DNA of 37,867 bases from a virus, in the IMG/VR virus record IMGVR_UViG_3300050343_000081, positions 1 to 37,867 of that record, one strand, 5' to 3'. The notes under the pieces are model-generated. The model saw only the letters and a program-made list of their open reading frames with translations. It was not told where the DNA came from and searched no databases. The position numbers and the translations under genes are program-made. Positions 1,716 to 26,101 of the stretch are shown piece by piece (positions within the stretch are counted from its first letter, which is position 1; the number at the start of each line of letters is the position of its first letter).

Positions 1716-2009
1716 ATGAGAAAAGTCACACAACAAATTGCAAACGCCTTTGCACAAGGCAACAAAATGACAATCGGCAACACAATGACAGACGGCAACG
1801 CTGTCTATTTACACGGCAACAAAATAGCCGAGCGCACAAATGACGGCATCTTAATGACGTTAGCAGGCTGGAATTCAGTCACAACACGCGAACGCTTAAA
1901 CGGCATTGCACAAGTGCTAGGTCTTGACGCTAGCTTTAATCAGAAAGACTTTGAGCCGTATTTTAACGGAAAGCACCTTGCCGTTAGCGCATGGGTAAAA
2001 GTAAACTAA
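1716..2009 (+). CDS. Conserved phage protein of unknown function
   Basis: This 97-residue protein starts MRKVTQQIANAF and contains repeated GN-containing segments (QGNKMTIGNTMTDGNAVYLHG). It continues with NKIAERTNDGILMTLAGW and a TTRERLNGI segment. The order VTQQ, LHGN-IA, GW and RLNGI resembles a small hypothetical family seen in many tailed phages, function unknown. The start follows the fullest form of the CA leader (ACACACACAAACACACTATG). It may be DNA-associated, but no motif proves this. Confidence 0.7.
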   Translation: MRKVTQQIANAFAQGNKMTIGNTMTDGNAVYLHGNKIAERTNDGILMTLAGWNSVTTRERLNGIAQVLGLDASFNQKDFEPYFNGKHLAVSAWVKVN

Positions 2010-2031
2010 CCACAAACAAACTAACCAAACA

Positions 2032-2050
2032 GAGCGCGACAGCGCGACCA
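2032..2050 (+). repeat. 19-bp hairpin repeat, copy 2
   Basis: GAGCGCGACAGCGCGACCA forms GCGC-GACA-GCGC, with a GNNA-type loop, and sits 3 bases before the start codon at 2054, the same position relative to the gene as copy 1. Confidence 0.7.
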
Positions 2051-2053
2051 CCT

Positions 2054-2239
2054 ATGAAAGCACCAAAAGACTTCCCAGAACTACACTCATCGGCAATCCC
2101 ATGTAATTCATGGGTATGCACTCACCCGAAAGGCACAAAGCAAGCCGAGACCTACAGTCGCGACAAGGCACTTGAGGCACACTCTAAGGGCTGGACAGTC
2201 AAGACGGCTTATCAGCACCTTGTTGACCTCAATAACTAA
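2054..2239 (+). CDS. Hypothetical early protein
   Basis: This 61-residue protein (MKAPKDFPELHSSAIPCNSW) has a central CNSWVCTHPKGTKQAETYSRD segment and a C-terminal stretch ALEAHSKGWTVKTAYQHLVDLN. No family is recognised. An in-frame ATG at 1991 would overlap the previous gene and run through the hairpin repeat. The start at 2054 is preferred because its spacing to the hairpin matches that of the 1584 gene. Confidence 0.6.
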   Translation: MKAPKDFPELHSSAIPCNSWVCTHPKGTKQAETYSRDKALEAHSKGWTVKTAYQHLVDLNN

Positions 2240-2255
2240 CACACACAAACACACT

Positions 2256-2501
2256 ATGAACACACAAAACCAAAACGAACTATTCTCTGTTTACCACATT
2301 GAAACTAATTCCGAACAACTTCTTTCTTTTAATAAAGAAACTTGGGAAGGATTAAAGGTTCTCACACTATCGGACGGTGAAATCAGAGATGGTTTCAATC
2401 TTCTAATACAGTTCAAGGATGAATACTACCTTATGCAGAACGCAGATTTATGCGATTTACAAGTTAGATACAGTCCGTGGGCTGTTAGTTTACAAAAATA
2501 A
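2256..2501 (+). CDS. Hypothetical early protein
   Basis: This 81-residue acidic protein (MNTQNQNELFSVYHIETNSE) has no recognised family. The ORF is open from 2172, but the ATG at 2256 is chosen because it is preceded by a leader identical over 20 bases to the one before 1716 (ACACACACAAACACACTATG). The upstream part overlaps the previous gene in another frame and looks non-coding. Confidence 0.6.
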   Translation: MNTQNQNELFSVYHIETNSEQLLSFNKETWEGLKVLTLSDGEIRDGFNLLIQFKDEYYLMQNADLCDLQVRYSPWAVSLQK

Positions 2502-2514
2502 CACACTACACACT

Positions 2515-2664
2515 ATGAAAACACAAAAGAAAACCGAGCGCGAAAGCGCGACCAACAAGCTAGTCAAAACAGACAGGCAAACCGAGAGCGCATTTATCGT
2601 GTTCTCGTGCATCATCGTCGCAGGAATCCTGCTAATTGTAACCGTAATAATGGAAAACCTATGA
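2515..2664 (+). CDS. Small single-pass membrane protein
   Basis: This 49-residue protein has a charged N-terminal half (MKTQKKTERESATNK) and one C-terminal membrane segment (about residues 28-45, SAFIVFSCIIVAGILLIVTV), so it is probably a bitopic inner-membrane protein. Its codons 8-13 contain hairpin-repeat copy 3. The start follows AACACACTACACACT, the CA-rich leader. Its stop overlaps the next start as ATGA. Function is unknown. Confidence 0.55.
   Translation: MKTQKKTERESATNKLVKTDRQTESAFIVFSCIIVAGILLIVTVIMENL
2536..2554 (+). repeat. 19-bp hairpin repeat, copy 3 (inside a coding region)
   Basis: GAGCGCGAAAGCGCGACCA forms GCGC-GAAA-GCGC with a GNRA tetraloop. Unlike copies 1 and 2 it lies within the coding sequence, 21 bases after the ATG at 2515, where it reads as ERESATN. 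If the 1991 reading frame around copy 2 were translated, the repeat would be read in a different frame. Conservation therefore looks nucleic-acid based. Confidence 0.65.
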
Positions 2665-2882
2665 GCGCACAGAAAATCACAATACTATCAATGCGAGAGG
2701 TTGGAGACAGTTCAGACGATGTTCTAGTCTTTAAGGGACACCGCACGAAAGAAGACTTAGCACTTGAAATAGATGCTTACGTTCAAGACTATATACGTAT
2801 GGTCTGGAAATCGAAACCCTGTGGAGGAAAAAGATTATTTAGTCCACGTCGAACAATCAATAGTAATAGACAGAGAAAATGA
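2661..2882 (+). CDS. Hypothetical early protein
   Basis: This 73-residue protein (MSAQKITILSMREVGDSSDD) has a basic C-terminus (KPCGGKRLFSPRRTINSNRQRK) and no recognised family. The start at 2661 overlaps the preceding stop (ATGA), so the two genes are probably translationally coupled. Its own stop overlaps the next start in the same way, so 2515, 2661 and 2879 form a tight three-gene run. Confidence 0.6.
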   Translation: MSAQKITILSMREVGDSSDDVLVFKGHRTKEDLALEIDAYVQDYIRMVWKSKPCGGKRLFSPRRTINSNRQRK

Positions 2883-3061
2883 GCTTTAATATATGGAATG
2901 AATCACCGCGCTCTATTACTGAGATAATAGAACACCTAAAGTTTGAAAATAAGCAGCTTAAAGCCGTCATCCGAGACAAGGACAGACAGCTAGAGCAACT
3001 TACTATTAAAACAGTAGACGATTGGCAAACATGGAGACCTTACAGCGACAATGAGAGTTAA
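2879..3061 (+). CDS. Hypothetical coiled-coil protein
   Basis: This is a 60-residue protein. Residues 13-43 (ITEIIEHLKFENKQLKAVIR followed by DKDRQLEQLTI) have regularly spaced Leu/Ile and look like a coiled coil, so it is likely an oligomer. It is coupled to the upstream gene through ATGA and overlaps the next gene by 11 bases. No function is recognised. Confidence 0.55.
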   Translation: MSFNIWNESPRSITEIIEHLKFENKQLKAVIRDKDRQLEQLTIKTVDDWQTWRPYSDNES

Positions 3062-3260
3062 AAATAGACGTAACCTATTCCGAGCTGTGCCTGTAAAGGT
3101 TAAGCTACCATCTACCATCCTAAACCTTGCAGAACAGGAACACATAGACAAGAATTGGAAAGCATTTTGGGCAAGACGGGGATACACAAAGCCACCTGCG
3201 GTAAGTGCCTATGTTTTAGGCAGTTTTGATTTACCGATGCCTAAAAAGGGGCAAGCGTAA
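3051..3260 (+). CDS. Hypothetical basic early protein
   Basis: This 69-residue, strongly basic protein (MRVKNRRNLFRAVPVKVK) contains KNWKAFWARRGYTKPPAV and a lysine-rich C-terminus. It is the last gene of the early cluster, before the 200-bp gap ahead of the lysogeny genes. Its charge suggests a nucleic-acid or protein-binding partner. No family is recognised. Confidence 0.55.
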   Translation: MRVKNRRNLFRAVPVKVKLPSTILNLAEQEHIDKNWKAFWARRGYTKPPAVSAYVLGSFDLPMPKKGQA

Positions 3261-3298
3261 TGTTATAACGTATCACCTATTGACTTTTGTTTTCAAAT

Positions 3299-3313
3299 CT
3301 GAAACAGTTTCAG
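3299..3313. promoter_or_regulatory. Perfect 15-bp palindrome, operator candidate
   Basis: CTGAAAC-A-GTTTCAG is a perfect 7-bp inverted repeat about a central A. It lies 148 bp before the MarR-like gene and just downstream of a TTGACT -35-like box (3280-3285). MarR-family dimers bind palindromes of about this size, commonly in their own promoter, so this is the natural operator candidate. No convincing -10 box is seen at the right distance. The rest of 3261-3460 shows only the hairpin at 3427. Confidence 0.5.
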
Positions 3314-3426
3314 TAATGAAATACTTAACAAGTTAGGAAGATGCTATCAGATTGGGAGATAACTGAGTGCCAAACACAAAGATTAAAGTATCAAGAATTA
3401 TAACAATACCATATTTATTTACATTA

Positions 3427-3444
3427 GCTGTCTTCAAAGATAGC
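3427..3444 (+). other. Leader hairpin before the regulator gene
   Basis: GCTGTCT-TCAA-AGATAGC is a 7-bp stem (one G-T wobble) directly before the Shine-Dalgarno-like GAAGGGAG of the regulator at 3461. It may influence translation of the operon. Confidence 0.35.
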
Positions 3445-3460
3445 GAAGGGAGAATAAAAA

Positions 3461-3778
3461 ATGTCTGTTTCAAAACTCATTGGTTTGCTAGAGAAGGTTG
3501 AGCAATACTTAGGTCAACACTCTTTTAGGGATGGAAAGTTGCTTGCGTATCTTTACCAGTCCGAACATAGCGTTGTCTATTGCCAATCAATCATAAGAGA
3601 CCTAGACCTATCGGCAGTCTCAGTAACCAGAAGTCTAAAACTACTCAGTGACCGCGATATGATTACACTATCTATGGACACCGAGGACACACGAAAGAAA
3701 AGCGTATCACTTACCGACAAGGGGAACGCACTTAAATTACACATAATAGAAATATTAGAGGACACACATGGCAGTTAG
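3461..3778 (+). CDS. MarR-like winged-helix regulator
   Basis: This 105-residue protein has the order expected of a MarR/winged-helix domain: N-terminal helices, a recognition-helix region (about 40-65, DLDLSAVSVTRSLKLLSDRD), then a wing (DTEDTRKKSVSLTDKG), whose LT-KG end is typical of MarR proteins. It is shorter than usual MarR proteins (about 140 residues) and lacks a long C-terminal dimerisation helix. A clear Shine-Dalgarno (GAAGGGAG) precedes the start. It overlaps the integrase start by 11 bases, so the two form an operon. Its place ahead of the integrase makes it the likely lysogeny regulator; this is inference. Confidence 0.75.
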   Translation: MSVSKLIGLLEKVEQYLGQHSFRDGKLLAYLYQSEHSVVYCQSIIRDLDLSAVSVTRSLKLLSDRDMITLSMDTEDTRKKSVSLTDKGNALKLHIIEILEDTHGS

Positions 3779-5382: not shown

Positions 5383-7806
5383 ATGCTAAATCAACAAAAA
5401 CTTAACGCTGATATGTCAGAAATTGGCAAGGGTCGCTATCGAAATAAAATCGAAAGTGCCAAGGCGAGAGAGGTTGAGGGAGAGACAAAGTATGGGCAGA
5501 GATTGATGCGTGGGGCGTTACCACTTTTAACGAAAGCCATTCAAGATTCTTATAAGACTTGGAAGAAGCCCAAGACGAAAGCTAGGTGGCAGATTGATAT
5601 AGTCGAGAGCAAAGCACCTGTGGTTGCGTTCATAACAATCAAGGCAGTTATCGATAGCATTACCTTGCGTAAACCAATGAGCAGTGTAGCTGCCTTTGTG
5701 GGTGCAAGAGTTGAGGATGAGATAAGATGTTCGTTCTTAGTTAAGAACAACGAAAAGGGTGAAGGCATCATCTTGGGTGCAAAGCGTAAGCGAGGCGGTC
5801 TTGGTAACACAAGACGGCACATCAGACGTTCAATGCTCCATGAAACCGAGAAGGGGTTGATGCCAGAATGGGAGGGGTGGAGACAACGAGATAGATTAAG
5901 TTGTGGTCTAAACTTAGTAGAGATACTCAGGGTAAGCACTGGGTTAATAGAATATATCTATGTGCAAGACGGGAAGCGCAAGAAGAAGTCCCCAACTAGA
6001 TATGTAACGGCAACGAAAGAAACACTACAATGGATTGAGGATTATAACACCGACCGTGAACTCCTTGAACCGTTCTGGCTACCAAGCGTGGAACTCCCAA
6101 CACCTTGGCAGTCTGTTTGGGAAGGTGGGTATAGCTCCTCCGACACCTATCTTCCCAAACTTCCTTTTATCAAGTCCACTAACATGGATTACATTAGGTC
6201 TATCAAAGGTAAGCTAGAAGAACCGATGGAGGCGTGTAACCTCATCCAGAATACACCTTGGACAGTGAACGATAATGTTTACAAGGTTATGGACTGGGCT
6301 TGGAAGAACAATGTGCAAGTGGGTGAGTTACCTAGCCGAGAGGATGAAGAGCTACCAGATATTCCTAGTGACTTTCATGACAACCCTGATAGTAATACTA
6401 CATGGAGACGGATTGCAGCAGGCATCTATGGTCGCAACCTATCGACACGTAGCAAACGACTACTTACGTCCAAGACTTTATATGTAGCAGAGAAACTAAA
6501 AGGTAATCGTTTCTTCTATCCTAGTAACTGTGACTTCAGAGGTAGGGTTTACAACGTCCCTGCTTTCCTTGGTGTTCAAGGCACTGATATGTCACGAGGA
6601 CTACTCCAGTTCTATCGGTCTTGTAAGATTAAGAACGAGAAGAATGCACGTTGGTTAGCCATACACGGAGCGAACACTTTTGGTAACGATAAGGTATCAC
6701 TTGATGAGCGCGTTAAGTGGGCTTACGACTTTGGAAAGATAGCAATAGACATTGCACAAAATCCTACCGAACACCTACTGTGGACAGAGGCAGCTACCCC
6801 TTGGCAGTTCTTAGCGTGGTGCTTTGAGTGGCGTAACTACATGGTCAACAAGAAGATAGATAGCTTCTTACCAGTGAACATGGATGCCACCAACAATGGA
6901 TTGCAGATACTTTCAATGCTCACTCGTGATGAATATGGGATGCAAGCAACCAATGTTCTACCAACTGATACACCTGCCGACATCTACCGAGTGGTGTCCG
7001 ACAAGGTAGTTGAACAACTAAAGATAGATTTACAACAAGGCGTTGCGTTCAGTCAGCAATGGTTAGACTTTGGGTTAGACCGCAAGACAACCAAGCGTCC
7101 TGTAATGTGTTACAGCTATGGTCTTACACCCTACTCTAATCGTGCCTACATCAATGACTGGTATGACGAGACTATTCACAAAGACAAAACCAAACCACGC
7201 TTTGACGAAGGCATAAAGTATAAAGCCATCCACTACCTATCTACACTTGTATGGAATGGTATTGAGTCAGTCCTTGATAGACCTAAGCAGTGTATGCAGT
7301 GGTTCCAAGAATGTTCTAGACTCATCTCAGAACAACAACGAGCAATGAGTTGGGTAAGTCCGAGTGGTTTCCCAGTGCATCAAGAGTATCACAAGTTACA
7401 CGAGAAAAAGATAAGCACTTGGATTGGTGGCACTGCTACACACGTAACCTTCTATGATACCAAGGATGAAATCTCATCAAGGAAACAATCCAATGGTGTC
7501 AGTCCTAACTTTGTTCACGCACTAGATGGCGCTGCGTTACACAAGTCAGTCATTCAGTGTAACCAACAAGAAGACATATACGATTTCAGTATGGTTCATG
7601 ACAGCTATGGCACGCACTCAACGAACTGCGACAAGATGAGTAAGGTTATACGCAATGTCTTCTATGAGATGTTTAGTGTTGACCTCCTCCAAGATTGGAA
7701 ACATCAATTAGAAGTTAACAACACCGACATAACATTCCCAGACCCGCCAGCCTACGGGAACGCTGACCTCACACAACTCAAGGACAGTGAATACTTTTTT
7801 AGCTAA
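5383..7806 (+). CDS. T7-type single-subunit DNA-directed RNA polymerase
   Basis: This 807-residue protein is T7 RNA polymerase-like, about 75 residues shorter than T7 gp1. The palm and fingers motifs are intact. Motif A is LPVNMDATNNGLQ with catalytic Asp near 501. Motif B is TTKRPVMCYSYG, with Lys-Arg near 571-572. Motif C is MVHDSYGTHS with the second catalytic Asp near 740. An N-terminal region of about 300 residues carries the promoter and nascent-RNA functions. It reads middle and late phage genes. It begins directly after attP, with no clear Shine-Dalgarno. In a prophage it would lie directly behind the host tRNA-Leu promoter. Phage promoters for it could not be identified by eye. Confidence 0.97.
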   Translation: MLNQQKLNADMSEIGKGRYRNKIESAKAREVEGETKYGQRLMRGALPLLTKAIQDSYKTWKKPKTKARWQIDIVESKAPVVAFITIKAVIDSITLRKPMSSVAAFVGARVEDEIRCSFLVKNNEKGEGIILGAKRKRGGLGNTRRHIRRSMLHETEKGLMPEWEGWRQRDRLSCGLNLVEILRVSTGLIEYIYVQDGKRKKKSPTRYVTATKETLQWIEDYNTDRELLEPFWLPSVELPTPWQSVWEGGYSSSDTYLPKLPFIKSTNMDYIRSIKGKLEEPMEACNLIQNTPWTVNDNVYKVMDWAWKNNVQVGELPSREDEELPDIPSDFHDNPDSNTTWRRIAAGIYGRNLSTRSKRLLTSKTLYVAEKLKGNRFFYPSNCDFRGRVYNVPAFLGVQGTDMSRGLLQFYRSCKIKNEKNARWLAIHGANTFGNDKVSLDERVKWAYDFGKIAIDIAQNPTEHLLWTEAATPWQFLAWCFEWRNYMVNKKIDSFLPVNMDATNNGLQILSMLTRDEYGMQATNVLPTDTPADIYRVVSDKVVEQLKIDLQQGVAFSQQWLDFGLDRKTTKRPVMCYSYGLTPYSNRAYINDWYDETIHKDKTKPRFDEGIKYKAIHYLSTLVWNGIESVLDRPKQCMQWFQECSRLISEQQRAMSWVSPSGFPVHQEYHKLHEKKISTWIGGTATHVTFYDTKDEISSRKQSNGVSPNFVHALDGAALHKSVIQCNQQEDIYDFSMVHDSYGTHSTNCDKMSKVIRNVFYEMFSVDLLQDWKHQLEVNNTDITFPDPPAYGNADLTQLKDSEYFFS

Positions 7807-15661: not shown

Positions 15662-16555
15662 ATGAGTAACAAATCTGCCGAAAGCTTATACACCTCCCTT
15701 GAGGGGAAGCGATACCAATACCTAGACAGAGCCAGACAAGCATCTAAATTAACTTTACCTTATGTAATGCCTGATGAGGGCTTCGGTTCTCATTCACGGT
15801 TAGAGACACCATTTCAAGGCGTTGGGGCAAGAGGAACTAACAACCTAGCATCAAAACTATTACTTGCACTCCTTCCCCCTAACGCCCCCTTTTTTAGACT
15901 TAACATAGACAAGTATGCTTTGGCAGCCGAAGGTGCTGACGCAAGTGTATTGTCTGAAATCGAAGCAGGACTTCAACAAGTAGAAGATTCTGTGATGGAT
16001 GAGATTAGTCGTGAGACCTATCGCGTTGCTATCCATGAAGCACTTAAGCATCTTATTGTTGCTGGTAATGCGTTGCTATATATGCCTGATGATGGCGGTA
16101 TGCGCGTGTTCCACCTAGACCGCTATTGTGTTGAGCGTGATGCTATGGGTAATACCCTATACATCTGCACCAAAGAAACCCTTTCATATATGTCACTGTC
16201 CGAGGAGTTAAAAGAACTCGTAGGTGTTCAAGGAGAAAGCGCTGACGAAGCTATCAATCTTTACACAGCGGTGTGCCGTAAGAGTGACCACTGGTTTGTC
16301 TACCAAGACATCAATGGTATTCGTATCCCATCCTCTGAAGGTAAATACAAACTCGACAAGAACCCATTTATCCCCCTTCGCTTTACTCGCGTTGATGGTG
16401 AAGACTACGGTCGAGGTTATGTAGAAGAATACCTCGGAGACCTACAGTCCCTTGAGACCCTTACCCAAGCTATCGTTGAAGGTAGCGCAGCAGCAGCCAA
16501 GGTTCTATTCATGGTTAACCCTAACGGAACAACCAGAGCGAAGGACACTAGCTGA
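15662..16555 (+). CDS. Portal (head-tail connector) protein, N-terminal part, frameshifted
   Basis: This reading frame gives 297 residues of a T7 gp8-like portal: SLEGKRYQYLDRARQASKL near the start, GARGTNNLASKLLLALLPPN, and QSLETLTQAIVEGSAAAAKV near the end. It stops at TGA (16553-16555) after TTRAKDTS. In related portals the sequence here continues TTRAK-TLAESPNGA, and exactly that continuation is present in another frame from 16545. A single extra base at the AAGG of 16541-16544 explains the break. Removing one G gives a 517-residue portal (T7 gp8 has 536). The portal forms the ring through which DNA is packaged and ejected. Confidence 0.9.
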   Translation: MSNKSAESLYTSLEGKRYQYLDRARQASKLTLPYVMPDEGFGSHSRLETPFQGVGARGTNNLASKLLLALLPPNAPFFRLNIDKYALAAEGADASVLSEIEAGLQQVEDSVMDEISRETYRVAIHEALKHLIVAGNALLYMPDDGGMRVFHLDRYCVERDAMGNTLYICTKETLSYMSLSEELKELVGVQGESADEAINLYTAVCRKSDHWFVYQDINGIRIPSSEGKYKLDKNPFIPLRFTRVDGEDYGRGYVEEYLGDLQSLETLTQAIVEGSAAAAKVLFMVNPNGTTRAKDTS

Positions 16556-17216
16556 GTCACCTAATGGTGCTATCACCCAAGGTAATGCTCAGGACGTATC
16601 GGTTCTACAGCTTAATAAATTTAATGACTTCCGCGTTGCCCAAGAAACTATCAATGAAATTAAAGATAGACTTGGACACGCCTTCTTACTTACTTCAGGA
16701 GTTGTTCGCCAAGCCGAACGTGTGACTGCCGAAGAAATAAGAATGTTAAGTATTGAACTAGAATCTGCCCTTGGTGGTCTCTACTCTCTACTTAGTACAG
16801 AACTTCAGATGCCTATGGTCAACCGACTAATGGTAGTCATGAAGAAAAAGAAATCGTTACCTGAAATGCCTAAAGATGTGGTGAACCCTGTTATCATTAC
16901 AGGTGTTGAAGCACTAGGTCGTGGTAATGATTTACAGAAACTTGATTTGTTCCTAGCTGGGGCAGCTCAAGTTGTTGGCGCTGAAGCTGTCGCTCAGTTC
17001 GTTAATGTAAGTGAATACTTCAAACGTAGAGCAACCTCTCTCGGTATCAAGACTCAAGAGTTAATCAAGAGTCCTGAACAGATGCAGCAGGAGGCACAGG
17101 AAGCCCAACAAGCAGCGATGATGCAAGCTGCTGTACCTAATGGCGTAAATGCGATTAGTAGCCAGTTAAGCCAAGCTCAAGACGGAGCGAATATGAATCA
17201 ACAAATAAGCGAGTAA
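16452..17216 (+). CDS. Portal protein, C-terminal part, frameshifted
   Basis: The second half of the portal lies in the frame one base ahead. True portal sequence starts at 16545 (TLAESPNGAITQGNAQDVSV) and continues through QETINEIKDRLGHAFLLTSG to a Gln/Ala-rich tail. The open frame begins at a TTG (16452), but 16452-16544 duplicates coding capacity of the first frame and is not portal-like. The first downstream ATG is far inside the domain, so independent translation is unlikely. Either one base is a sequence error, the gene is broken, or a +1 frameshift occurs. Confidence 0.85.
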   Translation: MRPLPKLSLKVAQQQPRFYSWLTLTEQPERRTLAESPNGAITQGNAQDVSVLQLNKFNDFRVAQETINEIKDRLGHAFLLTSGVVRQAERVTAEEIRMLSIELESALGGLYSLLSTELQMPMVNRLMVVMKKKKSLPEMPKDVVNPVIITGVEALGRGNDLQKLDLFLAGAAQVVGAEAVAQFVNVSEYFKRRATSLGIKTQELIKSPEQMQQEAQEAQQAAMMQAAVPNGVNAISSQLSQAQDGANMNQQISE

Positions 17217-20495: not shown

Positions 20496-20498
20496 ATT

Positions 20499-20621
20499 AT
20501 GTCCCTATACGAAAATATTAACCGACGCAAGAAACTAGGCATTAGCCGCACCAAGAAGAAATCTACTATCTCCAAGAAGTCCTATGACAATATGAAGAAG
20601 GGTTTTCCTAAAAAGAAATGA
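20499..20621 (+). CDS. 40-residue basic conserved phage protein
   Basis: This short ORF encodes MSLYENINRRKKLGISRTKK, then STISKKSYDNMKKGFPKKK. It is strongly basic, and the MSLYENIN-RKK start and KKGFPKK ending resemble a tiny conserved protein of marine phages found next to the DUF6321-like gene. It starts 3 bases after the previous stop and overlaps the next start (ATGATGA). Function is unknown. Confidence 0.65.
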   Translation: MSLYENINRRKKLGISRTKKKSTISKKSYDNMKKGFPKKK

Positions 20622-20833
20622 TGAGTAATCCAACCTATTTATGTAATATCGTTGTCAACGAAGGTTTTGACAAAGAAGATGTTTTACCTAAATTTAAGAA
20701 TGTTGTTAATCCGTTGCTATGTAGCGACAGAGTATTTCAAGCACTATTAACAGCGGAAGACATTGATAAACATAATCAAGACGAAGCAACTCAATATATA
20801 GAGTTTAATCGCAACCAAGTAACAGACGACTAA
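20618..20833 (+). CDS. Hypothetical protein ahead of the fusion gene
   Basis: This 71-residue acidic protein (MMSNPTYLCNIVVNEGFDKE) contains CSDRVFQALLTAEDIDKHNQ and has no recognised family. The neighbouring reading is clearly AT-richer than the capsid gene, as is the following 1.8 kb, so this gene may have arrived together with the subtilase-like segment. It ends one base before the fusion gene. Two adjacent ATGs exist; the second, at 20621, would also serve. Confidence 0.55.
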   Translation: MMSNPTYLCNIVVNEGFDKEDVLPKFKNVVNPLLCSDRVFQALLTAEDIDKHNQDEATQYIEFNRNQVTDD

Positions 20834-20834
20834 T

Positions 20835-23270
20835 ATGGCTACAAGAACTATAAACACAGCAAGATTAGGTAGATTACATATAAATCAAAACGCCATAAAT
20901 TACGATATGGGTAATTGGGGTTTAATAAGACACACAAGCGATAGTAATCCATTTACTACAATGCCTGACACCAACTCAACATCGTTAAGCTCATATACAT
21001 ACACTTATGACGATAGTCATGGACAAGGAGAAGATGTTGATATTATTTTTATTACATCAAGAATGATTTACACAGGTAACACTGAGTATCAAAATAGCGA
21101 TGGAACAAGTCGCATACAACAATATCAATGGAATACTCTTAACAATCGACCTACTACATTAAAAGATGTAACTTTTATTATAGCGAAGCCAACAACAGAT
21201 AGAATACAGGTTAATGTTCTTGGCTCTCATGGACTTTCTGTAGGTGACAGTATTACACTAAGTGGTGTCGCTACAGCACCTGTAGTTAGCGGTTCAGATA
21301 CCTATATTCCATCAGGCTCTCCTGATATTAATGGTACATACACTGTTACTGCTCTTGGGGGTCATAATGGCGCAAGTCCTACTAATCAATTTTTGGTAAC
21401 TAAATCAATGGATGACAGTTTAACAACTTCAAATATTGGAGGAACTCAATTGGATTTAATTTACTATTTCAACCATAATGCTTCGGTTTTCACAAATGTA
21501 CCTAAAGTTCCTTGTCCGTTTGGTGAAACTATAAACTACAGCACGACTGCTGATAGAAGTTCTCATTCTGAATTAGTCGTAAAGTGTGCTTGTGCTAACA
21601 ATTATGGTGCAGCATCTAAAGCTAATATATACATTATACCTCGTGACCAATTGGGCAACGATTCTACTGTGTTTTGGGCGCTTCCAAAATTATTTCACCA
21701 ACAAAAAGGGAATAGTCGACCTACATTGGTTATTAATTCATTTGGAGATAATGAAGAATTTGAAAATTTAAAATACATAGACTTTAGAGGTAATAGACAC
21801 AGAACCCTCAACGGAGGTCGTTCTTTAGGTTCAGCTACAAGTGGTAGTCAGAACAGTTCTCATGAAACGGGTTTTCATAACCATGACCAATATAGACATT
21901 ATAGGGCTGCTGATACAGCTTTGATTAATGAGATGACTGCTGCTGGCGTTCACCACGTTGTCAGTGCTGGTAATGCAAAACATAAGCTAGATGTTTCAGG
22001 TGGTATTGATTACAACAATGCTTTACTTAAAAGTGATAATGTAGGTGCAGCTTTTAGCTCTTATTACAATAGAGCAACCTACGATACTAACCATAGTATT
22101 ACAGTAGGTAATTTAAATTCTTGGTTTAACGACGGTAATAATACAATATCAGATACAATACCATTTAAAGAAGTTTGTCCGTATGAAGGTGAGTTTACTA
22201 ACCCAACTTCAAACAGAGGTGCTAGAGTAGATTGCTATGTTGCAGGTACAAAAATAATTACTAAAATTCCTAACCCAAGTACACACACTGCTTTAGGCAA
22301 TGTAGTTCAGGATGGCACTTCATTCTCGTGTCCTATTCTAGGTGGACTTGCAGCATTAGTATTATCTAAGTACCCTACAACTACCCCTGCACAACTACGA
22401 AAATATTTCAGAGATGTAGCAGTTTCGAGCGTTACTCTTAGTGACAAAGTAGTACAACCTGATAATTCTAAAGGTGACTATGGTGATAGAGACTATATGC
22501 ACCACAACACTTCGCAGAACTCTAACCTAAAAATTACTTATGTTAATCCTGCCTTAAATTATGATACATCTCAAATTTCTGATACTACGATTACATATTC
22601 TACCGAAACTTATGTAACACCTAGCAGTAGCTCTAGTAGTAGCTCTGGTAGTAGTTCAGTTTTAACCTCTACCGATGGAAATACAATGACAACTCAAAAA
22701 TTAAAAGCGATAAACTCAATGCTAGGACATATTGGTGAATCACCAGTGAATAGTATTAGCAGCACTGCCGCGCTTCCTGTATCCGTATCAACTGCAATAA
22801 TTATATTAGATGAAATATCAACCGAAGTTCAATCGGAAGGGTGGCATTTTAATACTGAGACAGGAGTGAAATATACACCAACTGATGGCGTTATTACTAT
22901 CTCTGAGGACATTATACAATTTGACCCTATTGACACATCAGTAGATGTTGTTCAACGTGGAACGACCTTGTTCGACCGTAAGAATAATACAACAACTTTT
23001 ACAAGCGACCTAACGGTAAATCAAATGCGTTTACTTGCTTGGGATAGCTTACCAGAGGTAGCACGTAGATACATCACACTCAAAGCATCAAGAGTATTCC
23101 AAGGACGCATCATTGGCTCTAGGGAACTAGAAGCTTTGATTGCTCGCGATGAATACGTTGCTAGAGCTAACCTCCTAGAAGCAGATGGTAGCACCTCAGA
23201 CCAAACTATATTTAACAACTATGACACCTCTTCTAGAGTTGGCATCAATCGTAACTACGACATCTCTTAA
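20835..23270 (+). CDS. Subtilase-like domain fused to tail tubular protein A (gp11-like)
   Basis: This is an 811-residue fusion. Residues 60-530 are subtilisin-like: a core strand VDIIFITS (residues 68-75), a His candidate H244 in SSHSELVV, the oxyanion Asn N380 in VVSAGNAK, and the nucleophile Ser S496 in DGTSFSCPILGG. At the usual catalytic Asp position there is Thr (T74). A beta-rich insertion (about 115-220, GSHGLSVGDSITLSGVA, INGTYTVTAL) separates the first two blocks. A Ser-rich linker (SSSSSSSSGSSS, residues 597-608) leads to M618. From M618 to the end are 194 residues of tail tubular protein A (T7 gp11 has 196): KLKAINSMLGHIGESPVNSI, GWHFNTE, ARRYITLKASRVFQGRI. The gp11 part forms the tail ring below the portal. 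Confidence 0.85.
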   Translation: MATRTINTARLGRLHINQNAINYDMGNWGLIRHTSDSNPFTTMPDTNSTSLSSYTYTYDDSHGQGEDVDIIFITSRMIYTGNTEYQNSDGTSRIQQYQWNTLNNRPTTLKDVTFIIAKPTTDRIQVNVLGSHGLSVGDSITLSGVATAPVVSGSDTYIPSGSPDINGTYTVTALGGHNGASPTNQFLVTKSMDDSLTTSNIGGTQLDLIYYFNHNASVFTNVPKVPCPFGETINYSTTADRSSHSELVVKCACANNYGAASKANIYIIPRDQLGNDSTVFWALPKLFHQQKGNSRPTLVINSFGDNEEFENLKYIDFRGNRHRTLNGGRSLGSATSGSQNSSHETGFHNHDQYRHYRAADTALINEMTAAGVHHVVSAGNAKHKLDVSGGIDYNNALLKSDNVGAAFSSYYNRATYDTNHSITVGNLNSWFNDGNNTISDTIPFKEVCPYEGEFTNPTSNRGARVDCYVAGTKIITKIPNPSTHTALGNVVQDGTSFSCPILGGLAALVLSKYPTTTPAQLRKYFRDVAVSSVTLSDKVVQPDNSKGDYGDRDYMHHNTSQNSNLKITYVNPALNYDTSQISDTTITYSTETYVTPSSSSSSSSGSSSVLTSTDGNTMTTQKLKAINSMLGHIGESPVNSISSTAALPVSVSTAIIILDEISTEVQSEGWHFNTETGVKYTPTDGVITISEDIIQFDPIDTSVDVVQRGTTLFDRKNNTTTFTSDLTVNQMRLLAWDSLPEVARRYITLKASRVFQGRIIGSRELEALIARDEYVARANLLEADGSTSDQTIFNNYDTSSRVGINRNYDIS

Positions 23271-26101
23271 TGGCATTAATTAATACAAGTGTCCCTAACC
23301 TTATCCAAGGTGTATCTCAACAGCCAGACGCTACACGCTTTGCTGGTCAATGTGAGGAGCAGGAAAACGCTCTTAGCTCTGTTGCAGATGGACTTAAGAA
23401 GCGTCCTAATACTAGGCACATCGCTAGGTTACTTACGACTGCTATAGACAGTAATAGCTTTGTTCACTTTATCAATCGAAGCGACTCTGAGAAGTATGTG
23501 GTTATTCACGATGGTTATTGCTTAAAAGTTTTTAATATAACTACTGGTGCTGAAGCAACTATTAATGGAGCGACTGGTGGATACACTCCCGCGACTGGTA
23601 ATTATTTAGACAGCTTATCTCCTATTGATAGTTTAAAAGCACTGACAATAGGCGATTCAACCTTTTTACTTAATAATAAAATATCAGTTGCACCTAAAAC
23701 AACCACTACCACCCCCTTAGAGAAGGACGGGGTGGTATTTGTTAAGCAAGGAGATTACGATAAAAACTACAGGGTTGATGCGCAAGTTACGGACGCGGAC
23801 GGAACTGCTGCAGGAGTGACAGCCCCAACGATGCCTGAGTTTATTGTAGAAATAGAAAGGTATTTACATTCTTCTAGTCAGAGTGGTGGCGGGGGTCGCA
23901 CTACCACAAACAATTATAGGTGGCGGGTTGAGTCAGTACAGGTTACTGCCGCTGGGTCAAACATTACGGGTGCTGTTAATATAAATGTCACCAGCAACAA
24001 AGCTATTTATACTAATCCCAACTTAGACGTAAATATATCGAATGGTTCGGTTATAAGTGTTACAGTTGTAAACGCAGGAAGTTTTGAGGGGATAACGAAT
24101 ACTGATGATAATGTGGTCTCTGGTAGTGGTAGGAGTAGATATACTTCAGAAATTAATAATGGTTACAGAACTCCAACCACAGCCCATACCGTATCTGGGG
24201 GTTCAGTAGGCTCGGACGCAACTTTCTTTGCTGTTAAAAATTCAGGGAGTGGTTCATCTGCCAACACTAATTCTTCTACGATTGCTCTTGGATTAAAAAC
24301 CCAAATGGACGGAGCCGCTAGTTCCACTTTGGGTGGCGGTTGGAATGGAGCATTTGCAACCGCAATTCACAATGCTGGGGACAGTAATGTTTACCTAACT
24401 CTCACAGACCAAACAAAAGACTTTAGTCTGACTACGAGAGATGATTTATCTAATACAGGTTTAAGTGCGGCATATAAAGAAATTGACTCCCTATCTTCTC
24501 TTCCAGCCTCTAATAAAGATGGCTTTAGAATAAAAATTAGAGGAGACGCGGAGCTTTCAGCCGATGATTATTATGTAAAATTTTCAACAAACTCTAATGC
24601 GGCTTATGGACAAGGTGTTTACGCTGAGACTGTAGGCTTTGGAATTGTATCAGGGTATGAAGCAAGCACAATGCCTCACGTAATCGTCAACAATGCTGTT
24701 AATTCCTTTGTAATCAGGGAAGGACGCTATGCAGATAGACTTGCTGGGGATGATAATAGTAACCCACTTCCCTCTTTTGTTGGTCAGTCTATTGATAATT
24801 TATTCTTCTTTAAAAATAGACTAGGTTTTCTTAGCCAAGAAAACATCATAATGTCTGAGTCTGGTTTTGGGATTCTAAATGAACAAGGAGAAATGGAGTA
24901 TAACTTTGGGCGCACTTCAGTAACTACTTTACTAGACTCTGACCCAATCGACATATCAGTATCAAGTAGTCGTGTCACTAACTTAAAATCAGCTAAAGGC
25001 TTCCAAGAGAACCTTGTGATGTTCTCAGAGAATGGACAGTTTGTTCTGAAGGGCGGTGATGTTCTCACACCTAAGACAGTAAGCGTTACTCCAATTACTA
25101 ACTTTAGCTTTGAAGACCAAGTAGACCCACTTCCATTAGGTTCGTATCTTTACTTCCCATTCACTCGTGGAGCTTTTACAGGTATGAGAGAGTTCACTGT
25201 AAATGCTTCAAATGATACCTATGAAGCAGCAGAGGTCACTGAACACGTTCCTGCTTACATCCCTAAAAACATTATTGATATGGCTGGGACTACCTCAGAG
25301 GACATGATTGTGTTACTCAGTGGTGACGAAAAAGGCTCTCTTTATATCTACAATTACTTCTGGAACAACAATCAGAAAGTCCTTAGTGCTTGGTCTAAGT
25401 TCTCGTTCACTGGTGAGATACGAGGAATTGAGTTCATTGATTCTACCCTCTATGCGGTCATCGTCGATGCCGCCTCAACTGAAACTAACCTCGTTGAGAT
25501 GCCCCTAGAGTCTGGTCTTACGGATGCCGCTGGTTACGTTACTCACCTAGATATGAGGGTGGCATCTACCGTCAGTAATGGCTCCTCTACAATAACCCTT
25601 CCATACACCCCAGCAGACAACTCTGTAGAGGTTTACACGACAGACGGACTCAAGCTCAATGCTACTAACTCAGGAGCCACTGTTACTCTTGCACAAGCGG
25701 TGACAGCGGATACCACTGTATTTACTGGCATCCCCTACACCATGAAGTACACCTTCTCTGAGCAGCTCTTCAAAGCTAAAGCAGGCAACGGCACAAGTCC
25801 ATCTAATGCAGCTAAGTTGTTGATACGCAACGGTTCAATCTATTTTGACAAGACAGCTTTCTTTAAGGTCAAGGTGACTCCTAAGTTCCGTGATACCTAT
25901 GAGAATGTCTTTACCCCTGACGTTGTGGGTTCTACTACAATAGGAACTCTTAACTTAGACAGTGGGTTCTATCGTTTCCCTGTTCTTACTAAAGCACAGG
26001 ATACAGCTATTACTATTGAGAACGGAAGCGCACTCCCAAGTAACTTCCAGAGTGCCGAGTTTGAATCCTTTGTTCACTCGCGCTCTAACCGATATGGCTA
26101 A
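23270..26101 (+). CDS. Tail tubular protein B (T7 gp12-like)
   Basis: This 943-residue protein begins with the conserved tail-nozzle start (MALINTSVPNLIQGVSQQPD, then ATRFAGQCEEQENA). It carries further family segments DRLAGDDNSNPLPSFVGQSI, NRLGFLSQENIIMSESG and FTRGAFTGMREFTV. T7 gp12 has 794 residues. The excess, about 150 residues, lies around 195-350 as a Gly/Ser/Thr/Asn-rich region (SSSQSGGGGRTTTNNY). It forms the tail nozzle, working with gp11 and the fibre. Its start follows the fusion-gene stop directly (AATGG), and its stop overlaps the next gene by 8 bases. Confidence 0.95.
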   Translation: MALINTSVPNLIQGVSQQPDATRFAGQCEEQENALSSVADGLKKRPNTRHIARLLTTAIDSNSFVHFINRSDSEKYVVIHDGYCLKVFNITTGAEATINGATGGYTPATGNYLDSLSPIDSLKALTIGDSTFLLNNKISVAPKTTTTTPLEKDGVVFVKQGDYDKNYRVDAQVTDADGTAAGVTAPTMPEFIVEIERYLHSSSQSGGGGRTTTNNYRWRVESVQVTAAGSNITGAVNINVTSNKAIYTNPNLDVNISNGSVISVTVVNAGSFEGITNTDDNVVSGSGRSRYTSEINNGYRTPTTAHTVSGGSVGSDATFFAVKNSGSGSSANTNSSTIALGLKTQMDGAASSTLGGGWNGAFATAIHNAGDSNVYLTLTDQTKDFSLTTRDDLSNTGLSAAYKEIDSLSSLPASNKDGFRIKIRGDAELSADDYYVKFSTNSNAAYGQGVYAETVGFGIVSGYEASTMPHVIVNNAVNSFVIREGRYADRLAGDDNSNPLPSFVGQSIDNLFFFKNRLGFLSQENIIMSESGFGILNEQGEMEYNFGRTSVTTLLDSDPIDISVSSSRVTNLKSAKGFQENLVMFSENGQFVLKGGDVLTPKTVSVTPITNFSFEDQVDPLPLGSYLYFPFTRGAFTGMREFTVNASNDTYEAAEVTEHVPAYIPKNIIDMAGTTSEDMIVLLSGDEKGSLYIYNYFWNNNQKVLSAWSKFSFTGEIRGIEFIDSTLYAVIVDAASTETNLVEMPLESGLTDAAGYVTHLDMRVASTVSNGSSTITLPYTPADNSVEVYTTDGLKLNATNSGATVTLAQAVTADTTVFTGIPYTMKYTFSEQLFKAKAGNGTSPSNAAKLLIRNGSIYFDKTAFFKVKVTPKFRDTYENVFTPDVVGSTTIGTLNLDSGFYRFPVLTKAQDTAITIENGSALPSNFQSAEFESFVHSRSNRYG

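Follow-up and report, generated by a model that had tools for sequence, protein, structure and literature searches.

The stretch of viral DNA analysed here, called the window, comprises the 37,867 nucleotides of IMG/VR record IMGVR_UViG_3300050343_000081. The gene under study, whose features are collected in Table 1, has a capsid gene upstream and a nozzle gene directly downstream, and this arrangement identifies the genome as that of a T7-like podophage. The gene is a single uninterrupted frame, open from its ATG to its stop as the initial annotation had described it, and the SAGN motif (N380), the GTSFSCP motif (S496), the serine-rich linker and M618 are all found where they had been placed. 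The 71-aa ORF that precedes it had been overlooked.

Table 1. Features of the fusion gene and its immediate neighbours in the window.
Feature	Position	Strand	Evidence or remark
71-aa ORF, putative subtilase pro-domain (I9-like) as its own gene, one base before the fusion gene	20618..20833	+	
Fusion gene: subtilase-like domain, linker and gp11 adaptor	20835..23270	+	811 aa, open from ATG to stop
Subtilase-fold region, residues 25-592, inserted segment included	20907..22610	+	Pfam S8, Foldseek
Thr74 at the catalytic Asp position	21054..21056	+	Alignments
Inserted segment, residues 108-228 (~120), between the Asp strand and the His helix	21156..21518	+	
His244-Ser245-Glu246: catalytic His kept; Glu at His+2 typical of the Asp-less clade	21564..21572	+	
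Asn380, oxyanion-hole Asn kept	21972..21974	+	Alignment
Ser496, nucleophile position kept (GTSFSCP)	22320..22322	+	Alignment
Ser-rich linker, residues 593-617, mixed Ser codons, predicted disordered	22611..22685	+	
gp11-like adaptor module, residues 618-811	22686..23267	+	Pfam Tube; unfused gp11 of relatives
Nozzle protein (gp12-like), next gene, overlaps the fusion-gene stop	23270..26101	+	Pfam Phage_nozzle, E 8.5e-198

The 811-aa protein is matched by Pfam Peptidase_S8 over residues 149-529 (E 5.4e-13), by Pfam Tube/gp11 (PF17212) over residues 623-787 (E 1.4e-42) and by the PHROG 446 tail protein (E 5.5e-48). The AlphaFold2 model, built on an alignment of 32 sequences, is confident for the subtilase core and for the adaptor, and of low confidence for residues 110-226 and for the linker (596-615). 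A Foldseek search with this model retrieves the gp11 adaptors of T7, KP32 and P-SCSP1u (7ey7, 6r21, 8i4m) and, separately, proteinase K, subtilisins and PCSK9, with a TMt of about 0.7 to proteinase K-like enzymes, and the subtilase-like character first read from the motifs is thereby supported by both profile and fold. The segment inserted ahead of the His helix, which holds a GLSVGDxxxxxG...NGTYTV-like stretch, is missing from the closest relatives in the alignment, and no relative of it was found among phages.

Like a gp11 adaptor gene, the fusion gene stands directly before the nozzle gene, but its product has 811 residues instead of forming a single domain of about 190-200. The adaptor module is 79-86% identical to the unfused gp11 of relatives L006-L018, and gp11 is free of any long in-frame extension in 45 of the 45 relatives checked, which upholds the view that the preceding 617 residues are an addition. 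The proposal of a complete gp11 starting at M618 stands as regards the adaptor module and has to be amended as regards its start: the native gp11 start codon aligns with N616, and M618 lies two codons further downstream. M618 may or may not act as an internal start releasing free gp11: the weak GGAA that precedes it is not diagnostic, since most genes of this genome are devoid of a Shine-Dalgarno sequence. In the solved T7 tail (PDB 6r21), a gp11 chain includes about 35 additional N-terminal residues, so that an N-terminal extension of the adaptor looks tolerated.

The alignment of the active site reveals the main peculiarity of the subtilase-like part. The strand that reads VDVVIMDTGV in the cyanophage homologues with a full triad reads VDIIFITSRMI in the fusion protein, which puts Thr74 where the catalytic Asp would be; His244 sits in an HSE sequence, as against HGTH in the same homologues. 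The three closest sequences, aligned and scanned against viral contigs, detected 50 loci, and in a tree of 111 sequences those without an acid at the Asp position, where the other members carry I, L, T, V, A or G, form one clade with a support of 1.0. Related phage subtilases outside this clade keep the full triad. On the basis of this tree, the subtilase part of the fusion protein belongs to an unannotated Asp-less clade of marine phages comprising 26 distinct sequences. None of the Asp-less proteins was seen among annotated phage records in searches with three clade members, which matched cyanophage and marine homologues only, besides short matches to two Mycobacterium phages; the annotated homologues aligned here retain the Asp. 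A search of bacterial genomes gave no match, nor did an IMG/VR single-protein search with the 617-aa part. Another altered active site is observed in a second set of 20 sequences (L093, L095, L100, L102, L118 and others) with a Glu at the catalytic Asp position and mostly ENxT-like, HPTA and GTSY motifs. One phage contig, L193, carries two subtilase-like genes (1834-3690 and 5773-7509).

The loss of the Asp weakens the suggestion, made with the initial annotation, of a protease digesting host proteins or maturing the tail: the position is Thr74 in the window and non-acidic in all 26 sequences. What speaks in favour of this suggestion is the conservation of the remaining residues. His, Asn and Ser do not vary among the 24 Asp-less sequences compared, in which 57 of 383 columns are invariant; at that column rate the chance of finding all three invariant is 0.003, and some residual activity is for this reason possible. 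An active tail protease would combine Ser496 and His244 with another acid, such as Glu246 or Glu453, or would function as a weak Ser-His dyad, and would cleave host envelope or phage proteins. Glu453 is invariant in the clade and a Glu occupies the His+2 position in 25 of the 26 Asp-less sequences and in none of the 84 acid-bearing ones; the full triad of the related phage subtilases and the retention of a pro-domain, described below, agree with such an activity. Against it, no member has an acid at the canonical position, the remaining Asp-less sequence (L177) has a Lys at His+2, and residues at +2 of a helix would normally point apart. Furthermore, the loss of the Asp and the acquisition of the Glu trace to a single clade and one evolutionary event, so that their association is not replicated. 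We consider an active protease unlikely.

The 71-aa ORF was identified by gene order and profile comparison. Its homologues, with 35-42% identity by tblastn and 35-44% in an alignment, lie directly upstream of the subtilase gene in L170, L171, L172 and L092, which together with the window form a clade of support 1.0, and throughout this clade the two genes are separated by about one base or overlap by their start and stop codons. In full-length relatives such as L173 the core is preceded by about 95 residues, and the 71-aa ORF aligns with these N-termini (hhalign, 97.7% probability, E 1.8e-12); a Pfam I9 search of the ORF gave no match. The N-terminus of L173 is modelled as a beta-alpha-beta-beta-alpha-beta fold, and the whole L173 model matches pro-subtilisin E, as well as PCSK9 with its pro-domain. 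The fusion protein begins at the core and has no room before residue 25 for a pro-domain of its own. The order of the genes and the comparison of profiles thus argue that the 71-aa ORF is a subtilase pro-domain split off as a separate gene. Its product would act in trans, a role deduced from the biology of subtilases and from the stand-alone propeptide of Plasmodium (PMC6993865).

Comparison with related phages indicates that the pro-domain and subtilase pair is an insertion between the small post-capsid genes and gp11. The flanks match L006 with 97.6% identity up to 20629 and 90% from 22699, and the gap between a 42-aa basic ORF and gp11, which measures a few bases only in L006 and L008, is filled with other genes in L012, L013 and L016. 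The interval 20496-22690 appears as an insertion hotspot, whose ORFs in other phages (248-264 aa, 50 aa and 90-106 aa) have homologues in L170. L171 has, after its capsid gene, the genes for the pro-domain, the subtilase-like protein, a gp11-like adaptor (PHROG 394) and the nozzle (PHROG 376), in that order, and these four are separate and abut one another. In L170 the subtilase-like part is fused without interruption to a different post-capsid protein, which is unrelated to gp11 by profile. The C-terminal domain of L090 was rejected as a gp11 relative. Two different proteins being joined in the window and in L170, the joining would have happened at least twice, provided that the junction of the window is real. 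As for the neighbouring nozzle gene, it seems to be mosaic: in L028, with a gp11 66% and a nozzle 89% identical to those of the window, nozzle similarity does not follow that of gp11, and the region around nozzle residues 170-380 is variable among relatives.

Members of the family sit in the tail gene clusters of myo- and podophages. In the T4-like contigs L174 and L183 the subtilase gene lies between a baseplate hub/lysozyme gene and PAAR and baseplate wedge genes; in L187 it follows baseplate genes and in L188 a tail fibre gene. The unfused full-length Asp-less proteins (L173-L198) end in a common motif, approximately INFTxxQINTKLGSI. A strict version of it, with TKL or NKL close to the end, is present in 12 of 18 of them, the others having close variants (NSKL, NAKL), and it recurs in 14 of the 16 proteins encoded directly upstream. 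Among 147 other ORFs just 2 have it, and these constitute a second such pair in L193. The clade of the window is devoid of the motif, which may be a virion docking tag that the adaptor fusion has replaced in the window.

In these relatives, which are 32-42% identical to the window and none of which is fused to gp11, the subtilase gene changes fast. Of its differences between L174 and L175, 48.5 are nonsynonymous and 5.5 synonymous (w 2.56), with w values of 0.07-0.4 for the neighbouring genes, baseplate genes included, that have enough changes to be judged; one baseplate-hub gene reaches 2.63 on just five changes and is uninformative. The subtilase gene shows 13.7 nonsynonymous changes between L188 and L191, where the other genes have almost none, and in the pairs L184/L198 and L184/L189 its w exceeds that of every other gene compared. 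Nine of 34 L174/L175 changes fall in cleft-lining segments, for 2.3 expected (P 0.0001), these segments being defined by subtilisin numbering and chosen after the changes were seen; the pairs L188/L191 and L179/L185 change at similar places. This pattern near the rim of the cleft suits a host-contact surface, and of the functions envisaged at the outset a binding scaffold fits better, since the rim of the substrate cleft is the fast-changing part of the family.

The domain could also have a structural or assembly role, as a folded decoration that keeps the adaptor ring or the fibres stable or spaced with no contact with the host. Its occurrence in the post-capsid/adaptor slot of L170, L171 and the window and the fusion of two different post-capsid proteins are compatible with such a role, but the speed at which the relatives change compared with their structural neighbours, and the complete absence of the module from the closest phages, make it rather unlikely.

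The exact subtilase-gp11 junction was seen once, no second contig having been found in the viral contigs searched, and the partner in L170 differs; a search with the C-terminal motif for a second contig returned only the three already known. In the contig of the window, the reading frame of the portal gene (15662-17216) is shifted by one base near 16541 when compared with L008, L010 and L018, so that either the sequence is in error or the portal gene is broken. As the fusion rests on one contig in which such a frameshift occurs, a false in-frame join is possible, and the subtilase-like gene and gp11 would then be abutting or overlapping genes, as in L171, joined by a one-base sequence error. 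The Ser-rich linker is nevertheless frame-consistent with mixed codons, the residues that follow it resemble the C-terminus of the L171 protein in the same frame, the native gp11 Met is gone, and L170, a near relative, carries an uninterrupted fusion to another protein; a sequence-error join is therefore improbable. A chimeric assembly, with which the GC content of the insert (about 36% vs about 43% around) would agree, is very improbable, because the same pair adjoins adaptor-like genes in other phages and because, both flanks matching the L006 lineage, mis-assembly would need two breaks exactly at gene borders. We regard the fusion as real and unusual, in that a known adaptor is combined with a member of the unannotated Asp-less subtilases whose pro-domain is split into its own gene.

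The model that we propose, and to which we would give an even chance, is that of a pro-domain-chaperoned pseudo-subtilase that serves as a tail-displayed host-recognition domain, covalently joined to the adaptor. In a T7-like marine phage, a two-gene module encoding the pro-domain and the subtilase-like protein would have been inserted between the small post-capsid genes and the gp11 gene, and the adaptor would have acquired the subtilase-like protein as a covalent N-terminal partner. Acting in trans, the 71-aa protein would fold this partner and would not have to be cleaved off. The domain would most likely have lost normal proteolysis and would work as a recognition module displayed on the virion, in up to 12 copies if its ring resembles that of T7 gp11. 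A ligand on the host surface would be bound, close to where the fibres dock, by the former substrate cleft and its rim, which would diversify as the hosts change. Host recognition is the most likely role, although the invariance of Ser, His and Asn exceeds what a pure scaffold needs, and a set of twelve domains might leave little room at the fibre docks. A combined version would retain catalysis: a rewired subtilase, acting through Ser-His and a relocated Glu or through an acid-free dyad, folded in trans by the separate pro-domain, carried by every subunit of the adaptor ring and diversifying its cleft to follow host surface proteins. We hold it to be quite unlikely.

If the recognition model is true, a protease-derived recognition domain joins the host-binding modules of phages, on the adaptor ring instead of on a fibre, and the 71-aa protein provides a natural example of a pro-domain that serves its subtilase in trans. 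Furthermore, an unannotated phage clade in which the catalytic Asp is uniformly lost, represented here by 26 sequences, can now be named.

Our literature search found no paper on a phage adaptor-subtilase fusion or on phage pseudo-subtilases, and the closest known systems each share part of the arrangement. T7 gp11 (tail tubular protein A; 6r21, 7ey7, 8i4m) is alike in domain, fold and gene order before the nozzle, but it is a lone 196-residue protein, whereas 617 residues precede the adaptor in the window. Its ring, built of 12 subunits, takes part in fibre docking (PMC6702177), and tail tubular proteins have been reported as receptor binders (PMC7241545). The subtilase-like virion proteins of Kyanoviridae (P-SSM2 PSSM2_297, S-CREM1, S-SCSM1) belong to the same domain family and their genes adjoin tail or baseplate genes; unlike the window protein, they keep the Asp, carry their N-terminal extension in the same chain and have no adaptor fusion. 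Phage C75C1 CDS0038, encoded after the capsid gene, is homologous (55% identical) to the C-terminal portion of the L170 fusion protein but stands unfused; it has no subtilase part and by profile is not related to gp11. PCSK9, which is among the structural matches of both the fusion protein and L173 models, acts as a binding protein; its triad is intact and it cleaves its own pro-domain once.

The spore pseudoproteases CspA and CspC, whose role is non-proteolytic (PMC6636752), resemble the window protein by their subtilase fold, the loss of catalytic residue(s), a retained pro-domain and an inserted domain. They have lost two residues of the triad (the CspC pseudotriad keeps the Asp, without His and Ser), whereas the window protein has lost the Asp alone, and in the window, unlike in CspA and CspC, the pro-domain is a separate gene. 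In this last respect the 71-aa ORF recalls SUB1-ProM of Plasmodium (PMC6993865), a propeptide-like protein encoded separately, next to subtilase genes; SUB1-ProM acts as an additional inhibitor on a subtilase already equipped with a propeptide, whereas the subtilase of the window has none in its chain.
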